DNA from: Tautonia plasticadhaerens | GTDB taxonomy: Bacteria > Planctomycetota > Planctomycetia > Isosphaerales > Isosphaeraceae | DNA: 64,000 nucleotides | Direction of reading: 5' to 3' | Assembly (NCBI RefSeq): GCF_007752535.1 | Contig: NZ_CP036426.1 | Location: forward strand, 6,696,001-6,760,000 | Shown: positions 6,594 through 12,169 of the stretch, one piece after another | How positions within the stretch are numbered: the stretch's first letter is position 1 | Layout: the number at the start of each line of letters is the position of its first letter | Position numbers and translations under genes: made by a program | The notes under the pieces: model-generated | Told to the model about the DNA's origin: nothing | Database searches by the model: none | Seen by the model: the letters and a program-made list of their open reading frames with translations, nothing else

Positions 6594-7916
6594 TCAGGGC
6601 GTCTCCTCCGGGGCGCCCCGCAGCGGGCTGTCCCTCCGGCGTTGATACTCCTGATAGTCCTCCTGGGTGAACCCTCCGGAGTCCCGCTCCGGCGGCGGGC
6701 CGGGTTCGAGCAGGAACCGCAGGCCGTCGGTGTCGCCCTCGACCATCCCCAGCAAGCCGCCCTGGTTCAGCAGGTCGAGGCTGGCGTTGCGCGGCGACGG
6801 GTGATAGCCGGGCACCCGGGCAGACAGCCCCACGCGCTCGGCGGGGACGCCCTCGAAGGTGAAGCCCCCGTCCGGCCCGACGACCGCAGTCTGGCTGTCC
6901 CAGGCGTCGTCGCGCGAGAGGAGCACCCGGGTCTCCGGCGGCACCGGCCCGCCATCGGCCAGGACGACCCGGCCGCTGACCCGATGGCCGGGGCCGACCT
7001 CCACGTCGCCCAGGTCGATGGACTCCCCGTGGGCAGTGGTTCTCAGTGGTCGTAACGGGATCGCCCCGTGGGGCTTCAGGCTATCCATCAAGCCGTAGAG
7101 GTACCAGTCCTCGTCCGGCGGGATGTTGACGAATCCGAACTTGCCGTCCTCGTCGGCGGCGAACTGGAACTCGCCGACGAACCGCTCGGAATTGCGGTCC
7201 TGCTGCACCATCCCCAGCGCCACGCCCGGCAGCGGCTTGCCGTCCTTGACCACCCGGCCGACGACCGTCAGGCCGACGCCCAGCCGGATGGGGTGGACCT
7301 CCGGGCCGGCGGCCAGGGGCGCGAGCCGTACGGGGGCCAGGAACGGGGCCTTGACGCTCAGGTAGAGCCGCTCGCCGGCCTCGCCGACGCCGAGCCGGAA
7401 CGCGCCGTCGTCCTCGGAGACCGCCAGCGGGTCGATGCCCAGGTCGTCCACGCCGCCGAAGCGGTGGTATTGCTCCCGGGCCACGCCGATCGGCTCGATC
7501 ACCACCCGAGCCACCGGGTTGCCGCCGCCGTCCATCACCCGTCCCATCAGAACCCGGTCCGGGTCCCGGCGGTCGAGGTCATGAGGAGCCAGGGCGATCT
7601 CGTGCGGCCCCTCCTCGGGGACCAGCAGGGGCGTGGAGGCCGGGACGTAGCCGCGCGCCACCACCAGCAGGCGGAACTTCAGGTCGGGGTCGAGGTCCTC
7701 CAGGGCAAACTTGCCCCGCCCGTCGCTGACCGCAGACTTGCGGCAGTCCGGGTAGCAGGACGGTCAGAGGACGCCGACGCCCTGCCTGGGGGCGGCGGTG
7801 CTGACGAACACGGTGGCCCCGGCGACCGGACGCCCCTGGTCGTCCTGGACGGTGCCGGAGAGGGGGCCGGGGGAGGCGACCTGGGCGACGGCGGCGAGCA
7901 GCAGCGGGGCGATCAT
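6594..7916 (-). CDS. carboxypeptidase-regulatory-like domain protein with in-frame UGA at codon 51 (possible selenoprotein)
   Basis: The ATG at 7916 starts a signal peptide (MIAPLLLAAVAQVASPG), followed directly by a carboxypeptidase-regulatory-like beta fold (LSGTVQDDQGRPVAGATVFV). Codon 51 is TGA (7766-7764); the same frame then continues without interruption for 389 codons to 6594, with further repeats of the same fold (GRVMDGGGNPVARVVI; VVGRVVKDGKPLPGVAL; VSGRVVLADGGPVPPETRV). The residues after the TGA are PSCYPDC, so the TGA sits where a Cys would give CPSCYPDC, a form I recall from planctomycete relatives. A SECIS-like hairpin follows (separate entry). Two readings remain: selenocysteine (UxxC redox-type motif) or a simple nonsense mutation. 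The protein would be exported; its substrate is unknown. Confidence 0.7.
7726..7766 (-). promoter_or_regulatory. candidate bacterial SECIS element with UGA
   Basis: On the transcribed strand the UGA (7766-7764) is followed after 17 bases by a stem-loop (7746-7726). Its stem is CUG+CCGC paired with GCGG+CAG, with one bulged U, and its loop is AAGUCU. The loop and closing pairs (GC-AAGUCU-GC) differ by one base from the E. coli fdhF SECIS apex as I know it (GC-AGGUCU-GC), including the GU needed by SelB. The UGA-to-loop distance (24 bases) is in the usual bacterial range. The bulge is on the opposite arm from E. coli. Whether it works depends on selA/selB/selC/selD elsewhere. Confidence 0.45.
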
Positions 7917-8050
7917 GGCGAAACCCTCGTCGGGATGAGTCGTGCGAGACGACGTTGGCGAGTCTAACCTGGCCCTCCCCGGGAAGCAGCCCGGTCTTGT
8001 CCGCGCGGTGATCCGAAAGGCATCGGACCCGGGGAGGATCACTCGCCGCC

Positions 8051-9712
8051 TTACTCCGCTCCATCCTCGGCGGATTCGAGAGCGGCATCAATCAGGGCTC
8101 GCAGATCGAAGTGCTCCCACTCGCCTGTCTTGCCGCTGAATTCATGGACGTGGCCGTCATACTCGACCACGATAGAGTCCGGGGTCACGACCGGCGAGAT
8201 TTGATCCCTCCCGAAACCGGGCATACCAGAGGGTACGTCGTCACCCTGGGTCATCACAACCGGACCCATCCGAAGCCCTTCGGGTAATTCGAGGATGCTC
8301 CACTGCTTCGAATCGCTGCTGAAGGCATAGATGGAGCGGTCTTGCGTATAGGCGACCACCGTGCGGCCCATCGTCGGGTCGAGTCTCCCGGAGGCGGGCT
8401 CCTTCAGGTCTTGAGGATGCCACTCCCAATCGTCGAGGCTGAAGACGTAGAGCCTGTTGATCTCCGGCCCTTCGAGCATCAGCGACACGAGCCGATCGGA
8501 GAGGATGGGGGCCACATTGAGGGGGGATTCCTTCGATCCGGGCAGCCGGATCGTGCTGACCTTCTTCGTGGCGGCGTCGTAGATCGAGAACCTATCCCCC
8601 ACGGGCGAGATCACGAAGAAGAGATCGCCCTGCCGGATGTAGCGGGGCTCGTCTGGGCCGCCGCCGAAGAAGCTCTGCCTGCTCCCCGGTAGTGCGGCTT
8701 TCGCCTCTTCAGGGTAATCGGGGTAGTCCGGCGGCTCCTCAGCATCGTCCCTACCGGCGGCTTGGGTTTCGTGAACTTGTGGTTGCTTGGAGCCGGCTTG
8801 GTCGCCCTGCGAGACGCCGCCTGTATCCGCCTCTGTTGCCTGTGCCCAGTGGGCGAGGCCCGTTCCCCCGACAGCGAGAGCGAGGCTCACGAGAAGGACC
8901 ACCATGACGATCTTGATCTTGGACAGCAGCATCATCTTCATCACCTCCTCCGTCAGGGCGGCGATCTCGGCAGAGACCATCCCCGCCATCATCGCCCGCC
9001 TCGCCGCAATCAGGCTTGCGGCCTGAGCCGTGGAACCGATGAGCGCGTTCGGCATGCCGGCCGACGCCTCCCCGGCCAGCAGCACCGCCAGCGACCCACC
9101 CGAGATCGCCTCGCCCCGGCGGGACAGTTGCCTCGCCAGCATCGCCCTCGCCCTGGACAGCCGCCCCGAGACCGTCCCGACGGGCACGCCGAGTTGCTCG
9201 GCCGCCTCCCGGTGGGTCCTGCCCTCCAACTCGCAGAGGACGATCGGGATGCGGTACTTCTCGGGCAGGCGGCTCAACTGCCGGTCGAGCCGGGCAAGCA
9301 GGTCGTCCCGATTCTGTTCCCGAATTTCGGGCTCCGGCACGTCCGGCACCTGAACCTCCCGTGCCTGCCGCTTCGCCCTCGTCGCCCTCGCCTTCATGGC
9401 CGTCTGGTATGCCACGCCGTAGAGCCAGTTGCCGAGCTTCTCCCGGTGGGCGATCGACGCCGCCTTGCGGGCGAGGACCAGGAAGGTGGCCTGGTAGGCA
9501 TCCTGGGCGTCGTGGTGATCCCGGAGCACCCGGCGGCAGACGCCCCAGACCATCGGCCCGTGGCGCCGCTCGATCGCCTCGAAGACGGCCTCCTCGTGCC
9601 GCTCCACGAAGCGATCCAGCAGTTGCCCGTCCGACAGCCCCCCGACCGCCCCCACGTCGAAGAGGGTGCCGAGGTCTCGGATGGCCGTGCTTGTCACGCC
9701 CTTTTTCACCAC
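8051..9712 (-). CDS. ECF RNA polymerase sigma factor with membrane anchor and C-terminal sensor-like region, 553 aa
   Basis: Residues about 30-110 are sigma region 2 (VFEAIERRHGPMVWGVCRRV, DAQDAYQATFLVLARKA); residues about 140-200 are region 4 (LSRLPEKYRIPIVLCELEG, then an HTH ending SGRLSRARAMLARQL). A transmembrane helix follows at about 265-295 (KIKIVMVVLLVSLALAVGGTG), and then about 230 residues resembling the blades of a beta-propeller or a galactose-oxidase-like repeat (RLYVFSLDDWEWHPQ; SIYAFSSDSKQWSILELPEG; HVHEFSGKTGEWEHFD). This is a planctomycete-type ECF factor with a built-in membrane anchor and extracytoplasmic domain. The start is GTG at 9712, with another GTG at 9697 equally possible. 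It is divergent from the ECF gene at 9959. Confidence 0.85.
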   Translation of the reverse strand: MVKKGVTSTAIRDLGTLFDVGAVGGLSDGQLLDRFVERHEEAVFEAIERRHGPMVWGVCRRVLRDHHDAQDAYQATFLVLARKAASIAHREKLGNWLYGVAYQTAMKARATRAKRQAREVQVPDVPEPEIREQNRDDLLARLDRQLSRLPEKYRIPIVLCELEGRTHREAAEQLGVPVGTVSGRLSRARAMLARQLSRRGEAISGGSLAVLLAGEASAGMPNALIGSTAQAASLIAARRAMMAGMVSAEIAALTEEVMKMMLLSKIKIVMVVLLVSLALAVGGTGLAHWAQATEADTGGVSQGDQAGSKQPQVHETQAAGRDDAEEPPDYPDYPEEAKAALPGSRQSFFGGGPDEPRYIRQGDLFFVISPVGDRFSIYDAATKKVSTIRLPGSKESPLNVAPILSDRLVSLMLEGPEINRLYVFSLDDWEWHPQDLKEPASGRLDPTMGRTVVAYTQDRSIYAFSSDSKQWSILELPEGLRMGPVVMTQGDDVPSGMPGFGRDQISPVVTPDSIVVEYDGHVHEFSGKTGEWEHFDLRALIDAALESAEDGAE

Positions 9713-9958
9713 CCCGCCCCTTCGGTCTTGCCGGGCCTTTACCTGACTACTACCCGGTCGTGCCCGATCTCATACGCTTTTTCCCCGACCGATCCCTCCA
9801 GCCGCCATCATGCTCGCTTCTTCCGGGCAGGACTACGGGGACGGGCTGGACCATAACTCTCACGGCAGTTTAGGCTTGGAAATTCTCCCGGGAAACCCGT
9901 GAGGGCGGGCCCTCCTCCGGGCAGTACATCGGGATTGGGCATCCAGGGGGACGAGGCG
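9713..9958. promoter_or_regulatory. divergent promoter region between two ECF sigma genes
   Basis: Two ECF sigma genes face away from each other across this 246-base gap, so it must hold both promoters. No individual -35/-10 elements are assigned, since ECF promoters of this group are not known to me. Confidence 0.4.
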
Positions 9959-12169
9959 ATGGCGAGCGGAGATGCGGGCGTCCTCCGGCAGGTCCAGGCG
10001 CTTTTCGGCGTCGGGACGGTCGTCGGGATGACGGATGCCGAACTCCTGGGGCGGTTTCTCACCCGGCATGGGGATGCCGCCGAGGTCGCCTTCGAGGCGA
10101 TCGTCCGGCGCCACGGGCCGATGGTGCTCCGGGTCTGCCGGGACGTGCTGGGCGACCCGCACGCCGCCGAGGACGCCTGCCAGGCGACCTTCCTGGTGCT
10201 GGCCCGCAAGGCCGGCGGCATCGGCGGGCGGGAGCGGCTAGGCAACTGGCTCTACGGGGTCGCCTATCGGACCGCCCTGAAGGCCAGGGCCGGGGCCGCC
10301 CGGCGGCGTCGGCACGAACAGAAGGCCGCCGAGATGGTCCCCGAGGCCCAGGCCAAGGAGCGGAACCGGCACGATTTCGCCCCGGTGCTCCACGAGGAGA
10401 TCGGCCGCCTGCCCGAGAGATTCAGGGCCCCGGTGGTGCTCTGCCATCTGGAGGGGCTGAGCTATGCGGCGGCGGCCGGGCACCTCCGGGTGACGGAGGG
10501 CACGGTGCGGGGGCGGCTGGCCCGTGCGCGGGTCCTGTTGCGGGATCGGCTGGGCCGCCGGGGGGTGGCGCCCGCCGCTGGGCTGGGGGCCTTGGCCTCG
10601 TCCCGGAACGCCCTGGCCGTCCCCGCCCCGCTGATCGAGGGCACGGTCCGGGCGGCGATGCAGATCGTGACGGGGAGGGTGGCACCGGCCGGGGCGGTCT
10701 CGGCGGCGGTCGCCACGCTCACGCAGGAGGTCTTGAGGGCGATGACCATGATGAGGCTCAAGGGGATCACCACGGGGCTGCTGTTCATCGGCGGGCTCGT
10801 CTCGGGGGCGGGATGGCTGACGCACCATGCCCTGGCGGATCGGCCCGAGGGGCAGCAGGAGGGGCAAAAGGCCGTACCGGCCGTCGAGGTGCCCGACCGG
10901 GACGAGGGAGATCGCCGGGTGATCCTGGGGACCTGGACGACGGAGATCGTCATCCCCAGGGCCGTCGACGGCGAGCCTCAGCCGCCGCTGAGGCTGGAGG
11001 AGACCTGGGTCATCACGGGCGATCGGATCGTCACAGCCCAGGACGAGGAGGCGCTCAAGGTCGGTGCCGTCCACGAGTCGGTCTACCGGTACACGCTCGA
11101 CCCCGATGTGACCCCCAAGGCCATCGATCTCACCGAGCCCGGCTGGGGCACCTTCCCGGGCATCTACGAACTGGACGGCGACCAATTGAGGATCAGTTAC
11201 GGCGTCGGAGAGCGTCCCACCGAGTTCACCCACGACGACCAGCGGGGGCCGTTCCTCAAGACCCTCAAGCGGGTCAGCCCCGACCCCCGCCCGGTCACGC
11301 CGCTGTTCGCCACCGCACCGGGAGGCTCCTGGGCGATCCATCCCGACGACCCGGGTGGGGCGACGGACAAGCTGACCAGCACGATCGGCGGGGTCGTCCT
11401 GCTCACCGAGGACTCGCCCGACGGCTCCCTGCAAGTCACGCTGGCCCATCCGGTCGATCCCGGCGCCGGGCCGAGGCCGGAATACCGCGCGGTCGCCTTC
11501 GACGAGGACCGGAGGCGTTACCTCCTGGAGCCGACCCTCGGTGGCACCGGCGGCAGTGCCCGAGGAGGCGTGCGGGTCTCGCTCCAGCGGTTCCGCATGG
11601 ACCCGGAGGTCCTGCCAGAGGAGGAGATCGCCTACCTGGGCGTCGAGATCGTCACCCCCGGGGCCCTGCTCATGGAGGCCGATCGGGCGTTCGAGCGGGC
11701 CGAGGCCGCCGGGGTCGAGGTGCTGCCGCCGCCACGGGTCGGGGAACCCTTCGAGTTCGCCCTGACGACGATGGACGGCGAGGTGGTCCGCTCCGAGGAC
11801 TTGAGGGGCAAGGTGGTCCTGATCGACTGCTGGGCCTCGTGGTGCTCGCCCTGCATGGCGAAGATGCCGGGGCTCAAGGCCCTGCACGAGCGCCACGACG
11901 GCGGGTTCGAGATCGTGGGCGTTTGCTTCGACAAGGATGCGGAGAAGGCGAAAGAGGCGATCGAGTCGCTGGGGATGACCTGGCCGCAGGTCCTCGTGCC
12001 GGACGACGAGGAGGTGCGGCGCCTGTGGTCCGAGGGCTCGATGATCGACGGCCTGCCCCGGCTGCTGGTGCTGGACCGGCGGGGCGTCCTGCGGGTGGAT
12101 TGCGCCCCGGAAGAGGTCGAGGAGCAGGTCGTCCGGCTGCTCGGGGAGCCGGGGCAGCCGAAACCGTAG
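9959..12169 (+). CDS. ECF sigma factor fused to TIGR03067-like and thioredoxin (TlpA-like) domains, 736 aa
   Basis: The ATG at 9959 is chosen because the homologous start (VLRQVQALFGVGTVVGMTDAELL) begins there; an upstream GTG-like extension is less likely. Residues 43-110 are sigma region 2; 145-200 are region 4 (LPERFRAPVVLCHLEG, GTVRGRLARARVLL). A transmembrane helix lies at about 268-288. Residues about 318-420 resemble the TIGR03067 lipocalin-like domain of planctomycetes (LGTWTTEIV, EETWVITGDRI, GIYELDGDQLRISYG). The C-terminus is a TlpA/ResA-like thioredoxin with a CSPC active site at 629-632 (DCWASWCSPCMAKMPGLKAL). A transcription factor carrying its own redox domain beyond a membrane helix suggests envelope redox sensing or a moonlighting anchor; that function is inference. 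Confidence 0.88.
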   Translation: MASGDAGVLRQVQALFGVGTVVGMTDAELLGRFLTRHGDAAEVAFEAIVRRHGPMVLRVCRDVLGDPHAAEDACQATFLVLARKAGGIGGRERLGNWLYGVAYRTALKARAGAARRRRHEQKAAEMVPEAQAKERNRHDFAPVLHEEIGRLPERFRAPVVLCHLEGLSYAAAAGHLRVTEGTVRGRLARARVLLRDRLGRRGVAPAAGLGALASSRNALAVPAPLIEGTVRAAMQIVTGRVAPAGAVSAAVATLTQEVLRAMTMMRLKGITTGLLFIGGLVSGAGWLTHHALADRPEGQQEGQKAVPAVEVPDRDEGDRRVILGTWTTEIVIPRAVDGEPQPPLRLEETWVITGDRIVTAQDEEALKVGAVHESVYRYTLDPDVTPKAIDLTEPGWGTFPGIYELDGDQLRISYGVGERPTEFTHDDQRGPFLKTLKRVSPDPRPVTPLFATAPGGSWAIHPDDPGGATDKLTSTIGGVVLLTEDSPDGSLQVTLAHPVDPGAGPRPEYRAVAFDEDRRRYLLEPTLGGTGGSARGGVRVSLQRFRMDPEVLPEEEIAYLGVEIVTPGALLMEADRAFERAEAAGVEVLPPPRVGEPFEFALTTMDGEVVRSEDLRGKVVLIDCWASWCSPCMAKMPGLKALHERHDGGFEIVGVCFDKDAEKAKEAIESLGMTWPQVLVPDDEEVRRLWSEGSMIDGLPRLLVLDRRGVLRVDCAPEEVEEQVVRLLGEPGQPKP

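Follow-up and report, generated by a model that had tools for sequence, protein, structure and literature searches.

Among the bacterial selenoproteins catalogued in 2026 (PMC13188914), those with a UxxC motif (for example TlpA/redoxin, DsbA-like and CYCXC proteins) have an in-frame UGA in the place of a Cys codon, homologues with Cys at that position, a SECIS element downstream of the UGA, and SelABCD in the genome. Among these, the recognised redox enzymes adopt a thioredoxin-like or similar fold. For the planctomycetes, a 2016 paper (PMC4807772) reports that both Isosphaera and Gemmata have genes for selenocysteine (Sec) use, and that two further planctomycetes have selenoproteins.

The locus described here lies in a window of 64,000 nucleotides from Tautonia plasticadhaerens (NZ_CP036426.1, positions 6,696,001 to 6,760,000). 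Like the UxxC selenoproteins it has an in-frame UGA for Cys, the UxxC spacing, Cys homologues, candidate SECIS hairpins downstream and SelABCD in the genome, but its site is placed in a loop inserted into a transthyretin-like beta-sandwich (Table 1). The UGA is very probably read as Sec, because TGA and Cys codons exchange among the homologues, the Sec machinery is present and SECIS-like hairpins are enriched in the TGA forms.

Table 1. Features of the putative selenoprotein gene (positions in the window)
Feature	Position	Strand	Remarks
Putative selenoprotein gene	6594..7916	-	440 codons, one internal UGA (probable Sec codon); CarboxypepD_reg (transthyretin-like) multi-domain protein, predicted to be exported
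Terminal stop TGA	6594-6596	-	
Probable Sec-UGA codon, residue 51	7764..7766	-	Next base C (UGAC context); TGA/Cys column in homologues
UPSCYPDC motif (Sec51, Cys54, Cys58)	7743..7766	-	C/U-P-S-C-x-x-D-C invariant in alignments
GAGGG, Shine-Dalgarno-like	7924..7928	-	7 nt before ATG 7916; direct reading
Putative signal peptide, ~residues 1-15	7872..7916	-	MIAPLLLAAVAQVAS; hydrophobic, signal-peptide-like by eye
First CarboxypepD_reg/transthyretin-like domain, residues 19-102	7611..7862	-	Sec motif in an insertion
SECIS candidate B	7716..7743	-	Stem-loop, bulged U, apical loop GGUCA (7731-7727), 32 nt after UGA; GGU-loop hairpin in TGA forms; spacing as in own selD
SECIS candidate A (of the initial annotation)	7719..7752	-	Apical loop AGUC within AAGUCU (7738-7735), 25 nt after UGA; fits published model

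The initial annotation had described a lone UGA (7766-7764) in a frame of 440 codons, in the context GVL-UGA-PSCYPDC; on re-reading the sequence, the frame runs as stated from the ATG at 7916 to 6594 and the UxxC motif is the same. An open frame is by itself weak proof of coding in a GC-rich genome. The frame is judged to be coding before as well as after the TGA, because third-position GC reaches 0.98 in the upstream part and 0.93 in the downstream part, and because homologues align across residues 1-440. A global reassignment of UGA is rejected, since the gene's own terminal TGA sits where the homologues end. Export had also been proposed: the hydrophobic, signal-peptide-like start is there, and export remains a prediction from sequence. 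The counterpart of this start in one homologue (L024) reads MTRSARFVLAALALAPLALAQ.

Homologues were sought in the phylum (392 genomes), in the class (398) and in the source organism's own bacterial family (45), by a scan of the genomes of 84,980 species, and in 388 and 320 genomes around a Verrucomicrobia member (L058). All searches together gave ~58 distinct homologues with the motif, which is invariant as [C/U]-P-S-C-x-x-D-C in the alignments, in the form [C/U]PSCYxDC; no other stretch of the protein is as conserved. The codon of the first Cys is TGA at seven loci in six genomes (the gene itself, L022, with L024, L058, L066, L092, L094 and L096) and TGC or TGT in all other homologues, the very alternation of TGA and Cys that the initial annotation had suggested looking for. 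The six further TGA loci lie in five genomes, planctomycete and Verrucomicrobia, so two phyla in all: L024 (identical to L077) is from a Planctomycetota MAG, and the other five are from Verrucomicrobia and one further MAG. Four of the seven copies are otherwise intact, with ~385 codons downstream of the TGA, and the three of these other than the gene itself show 39-45% identity to its protein (L024, 43-44%; L058, 45%; L066, 39%). Truncation or a frameshift affects each of the remaining three (L092, L094 and L096). Two TGA copies, L092 (JAQBVM010000181.1) and L094 (JAQBVM010000051.1), belong to a single Verrucomicrobia MAG, casp150-mb.181, and both are frameshifted or truncated, through decay or assembly error.

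TGA in relatives, likewise asked for in the initial annotation, was thus found in five further genomes, but these belong to other families and to another phylum and none to the own bacterial family. No additional TGA forms were seen in 45 genomes of that family or in 12 of the class of L024, nor around the L058 genome, where its phylum (388 genomes) and its order (320) were covered; viral contigs gave no match. Across the 45 genomes of the own bacterial family the gene is patchy and mostly missing or decayed. L036 and L042, both from that family, retain only decayed fragments of it; of all relatives found, L036 shows the highest similarity, with 56% over residues 158-406.

The source genome (9.4 Mb, 99% complete) contains all four of the genes selA, selB, selC and selD to which the initial annotation had pointed: SelA (E 2e-128) and SelB (E 1e-103) are encoded by adjacent genes, SelD has E 1e-104 and tRNA-Sec scores 65.9 bits and is called SeC by ARAGORN, with anticodon tca. 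SelD has one in-frame TGA of its own, making selD (L018, C1:1193090-1194028, minus strand) itself a selenoprotein gene. A strong SelA, defined as E below 1e-50, is present in six of six TGA genomes and in 13 of the 36 that carry Cys (p 0.005, Fisher test), and ARAGORN reports tRNA-SeC in all six of the former. The search for tRNA-SeC in four Cys genomes without SelA gave weaker best matches only, of 86-88 nt. Because a tree of 58 rows needs five changes of the TGA label, at least four of them forced by well-supported branches, Cys/Sec exchange is, to judge by these codons, recurrent in the family, with at least four switches.

In the SECIS of E. coli fdhF, a bulged U lies below a GGUC loop, which follows the UGA by ~18 nt. 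The gene described here offers two overlapping fits to the published bacterial SECIS model (PMC13188914), with a G[G/U] pattern required. Candidate A is the SECIS-like hairpin AAGUCU of the initial annotation. It exists and fits the model, with apex GC-AAGUCU-GC, an A-U pair closing the AGUC loop and -18.0 kcal/mol for the folded stretch, but conservation of the apex does not extend to the other TGA forms, and a more conserved hairpin with a GGU loop had been missed. This is candidate B (apex GC-GGUCA-GC, -14.6), which overlaps candidate A, the two being mutually exclusive. Candidate B resembles the fdhF element as a short apical stem-loop with a GGUC loop and a bulged U below, and differs in having the loop 32 nt after the UGA.

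Across the family the published model (PMC13188914) is fitted by 7 of 7 TGA forms versus 11 of 51 Cys forms (p 1e-4). A more strictly defined hairpin, with GGU at the start of the loop, occurs in 6 of 7 TGA forms (-9.4 kcal/mol or better) versus 0 of 51 Cys forms (at -2), a comparison that uses a criterion chosen post hoc on sequences already inspected and counts Verrucomicrobia TGA forms that are partly related. L024 has a weak hairpin only. When single genes are shuffled synonymously, 0-7% of the shuffles reach the observed GGU-hairpin value. The GGU loop stands at +34 in the Verrucomicrobia TGA forms, and the hairpin after the selD TGA of the source genome (CGCGCA-GGUCC-UGCGCG) has its loop start 32 nt past the UGA. 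Since candidate B shares its loop type with the Verrucomicrobia forms, and both loop type and spacing with the organism's own selD, it is preferred over candidate A as the likelier SECIS of the gene. The folding energy of the whole region is left out of the evidence because it shows no group difference between TGA and Cys forms (p 0.2; own gene versus synonymous shuffles, p 0.0075). Synonymous-site conservation over the SECIS region among the Verrucomicrobia TGA forms is high in some pairs but not in all, and is not counted as evidence either.

The plain alternative of the initial annotation was that an ordinary nonsense mutation has turned a Cys codon into TGA, to which a sequencing error may be added. 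Only one base separates TGY from TGA, and a decaying gene would be in keeping with the fragments L036 and L042 in the own bacterial family and with the broken TGA copies. This explanation fails because six unrelated assemblies, from two phyla and all with Sec machinery, have TGA at this one codon, and because the four intact TGA forms keep the entire downstream frame; the enrichment of SECIS-model fits in TGA forms also speaks against it, and we regard it as very improbable. Readthrough without selenium, with a near-cognate Trp, Cys or Arg inserted, could profit from leaky termination, for UGA followed by C is a leaky context and the invariant Pro creates UGAC in every TGA form. It would leave unexplained the presence of SelA and tRNA-Sec in all TGA genomes, the SECIS enrichment and the strict pairing of Cys with TGA, and its chance of being correct is minimal. 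On the favoured reading, Sec insertion, SelB and Sec-tRNA held by the SECIS hairpin just downstream would decode the UGA at 7766-7764, and the terminal UGA of the gene would remain a stop.

The protein had been described as carboxypeptidase-regulatory-like, and Pfam agrees: PF13620 (CarboxypepD_reg) matches with E 3e-24 and 85.4 bits against a gathering score of 32.3. Its Pfam matches include neither a zinc peptidase domain of the metallocarboxypeptidase kind nor a thioredoxin family, and NCBIfam gave no match over the cut-off. A sequence search of solved structures found none, and no thioredoxin-fold chain is among the structural matches listed, which is not proof of absence. The AlphaFold2 model (mean pLDDT 94, pTM 0.84) consists of tandem beta-sandwich domains, the first of which (model residues 1-95) resembles the transthyretin-like domain found in carboxypeptidases D and N, with Z ~11 and rmsd 1.5-1.6 over 73-76 residues. 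The protein is like these enzymes in sequence family and in the fold of domain 1, but it is without the peptidase domain, and its domain 1 is longer by ~20 residues that are taken to hold [C/U]PSCYxDC. Sec51, model residue 33, is placed in this insertion just before a short helical stretch (model residues 34-41); the surroundings of the motif in the model are beta-sandwich, not thioredoxin-like, and local pLDDT is lower around Sec51 (block mean 72). The protein described here is shorter than some of its homologues. One of these, of ~1000 aa, the Verrucomicrobia Cys homologue L074 (L074:3001-5946), has a C-terminal AhpC-TSA/TlpA-like domain, which hints at a redox partner.

The product would be exported and consist of transthyretin-like beta-sandwich domains in a row. 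Sec51 would stand where the otherwise invariant CPSCYxDC has its first Cys, before the short helix of the insertion in domain 1. Sec51 would most likely pair with Cys54 as a redox-active selenenylsulfide, with Cys58 as second partner, and the site may act in the cell envelope, being thiol- or peroxide-active or engaged in disulfide exchange. The motif, the fusion in L074, general knowledge of Sec sites and the position of Sec in the AlphaFold model together make such an exported redox site moderately probable. A selenoprotein whose UxxC...C binds a soft metal (Hg, Cu or Ag), or forms a structural selenenylsulfide, would also account for three thiol or selenol ligands near each other, and it suits tandem beta-sandwiches that resemble adhesive or scaffold proteins and in which no thioredoxin fold is seen. 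Repeated exchange of Cys for Sec is, however, usual at redox-active Cys, and with the redoxin fusion in L074 this makes a metal-binding or structural role rather unlikely.

The 2026 catalogue of prokaryotic selenoproteins (PMC13188914) contains no carboxypeptidase-regulatory, PF13620 or UPSC entry, the 2025 deep-Sep list contains no carboxypeptidase-regulatory family, and neither mentions Planctomycetes or Verrucomicrobia. The family is apparently undescribed so far, as the initial annotation had proposed in calling it new. No literature on it was found, although the supplementary selenoprotein table of PMC4807772 may hold an earlier listing. It is moderately probable that this undescribed family, which has switched between Cys and Sec at least four times, carries a catalytic selenenylsulfide on a transthyretin-like beta-sandwich exported to the cell envelope in both Planctomycetes and Verrucomicrobia; if so, its members would be redox enzymes of the envelope with a fold not otherwise listed for selenoproteins. 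The selenoprotein family as such is well supported, in two phyla and on a scaffold absent from the 2026 catalogue. Automatic annotation is expected to call the gene broken or truncated, so that the family stays hidden in databases. The invariant CPSCYxDC of the Cys homologues would mark an envelope redox or metal site for which natural Cys/Sec pairs can serve as controls, and the repeated switching makes the family useful for the study of selenocysteine gain and loss.

The genomic neighbourhood is not conserved, the flanking sigma-factor genes not being found near the homologues. Directly upstream of the selenoprotein gene, at 8051-9712 on the minus strand, lies a gene for a protein of the Sigma-70 family whose long C-terminal extension matches no Pfam family. 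Two genes away from the selenoprotein gene, at 9899-12169 on the plus strand, an ECF-type sigma factor is fused, unusually, to a C-terminal redoxin/thioredoxin-like domain with the motif WCSPC.
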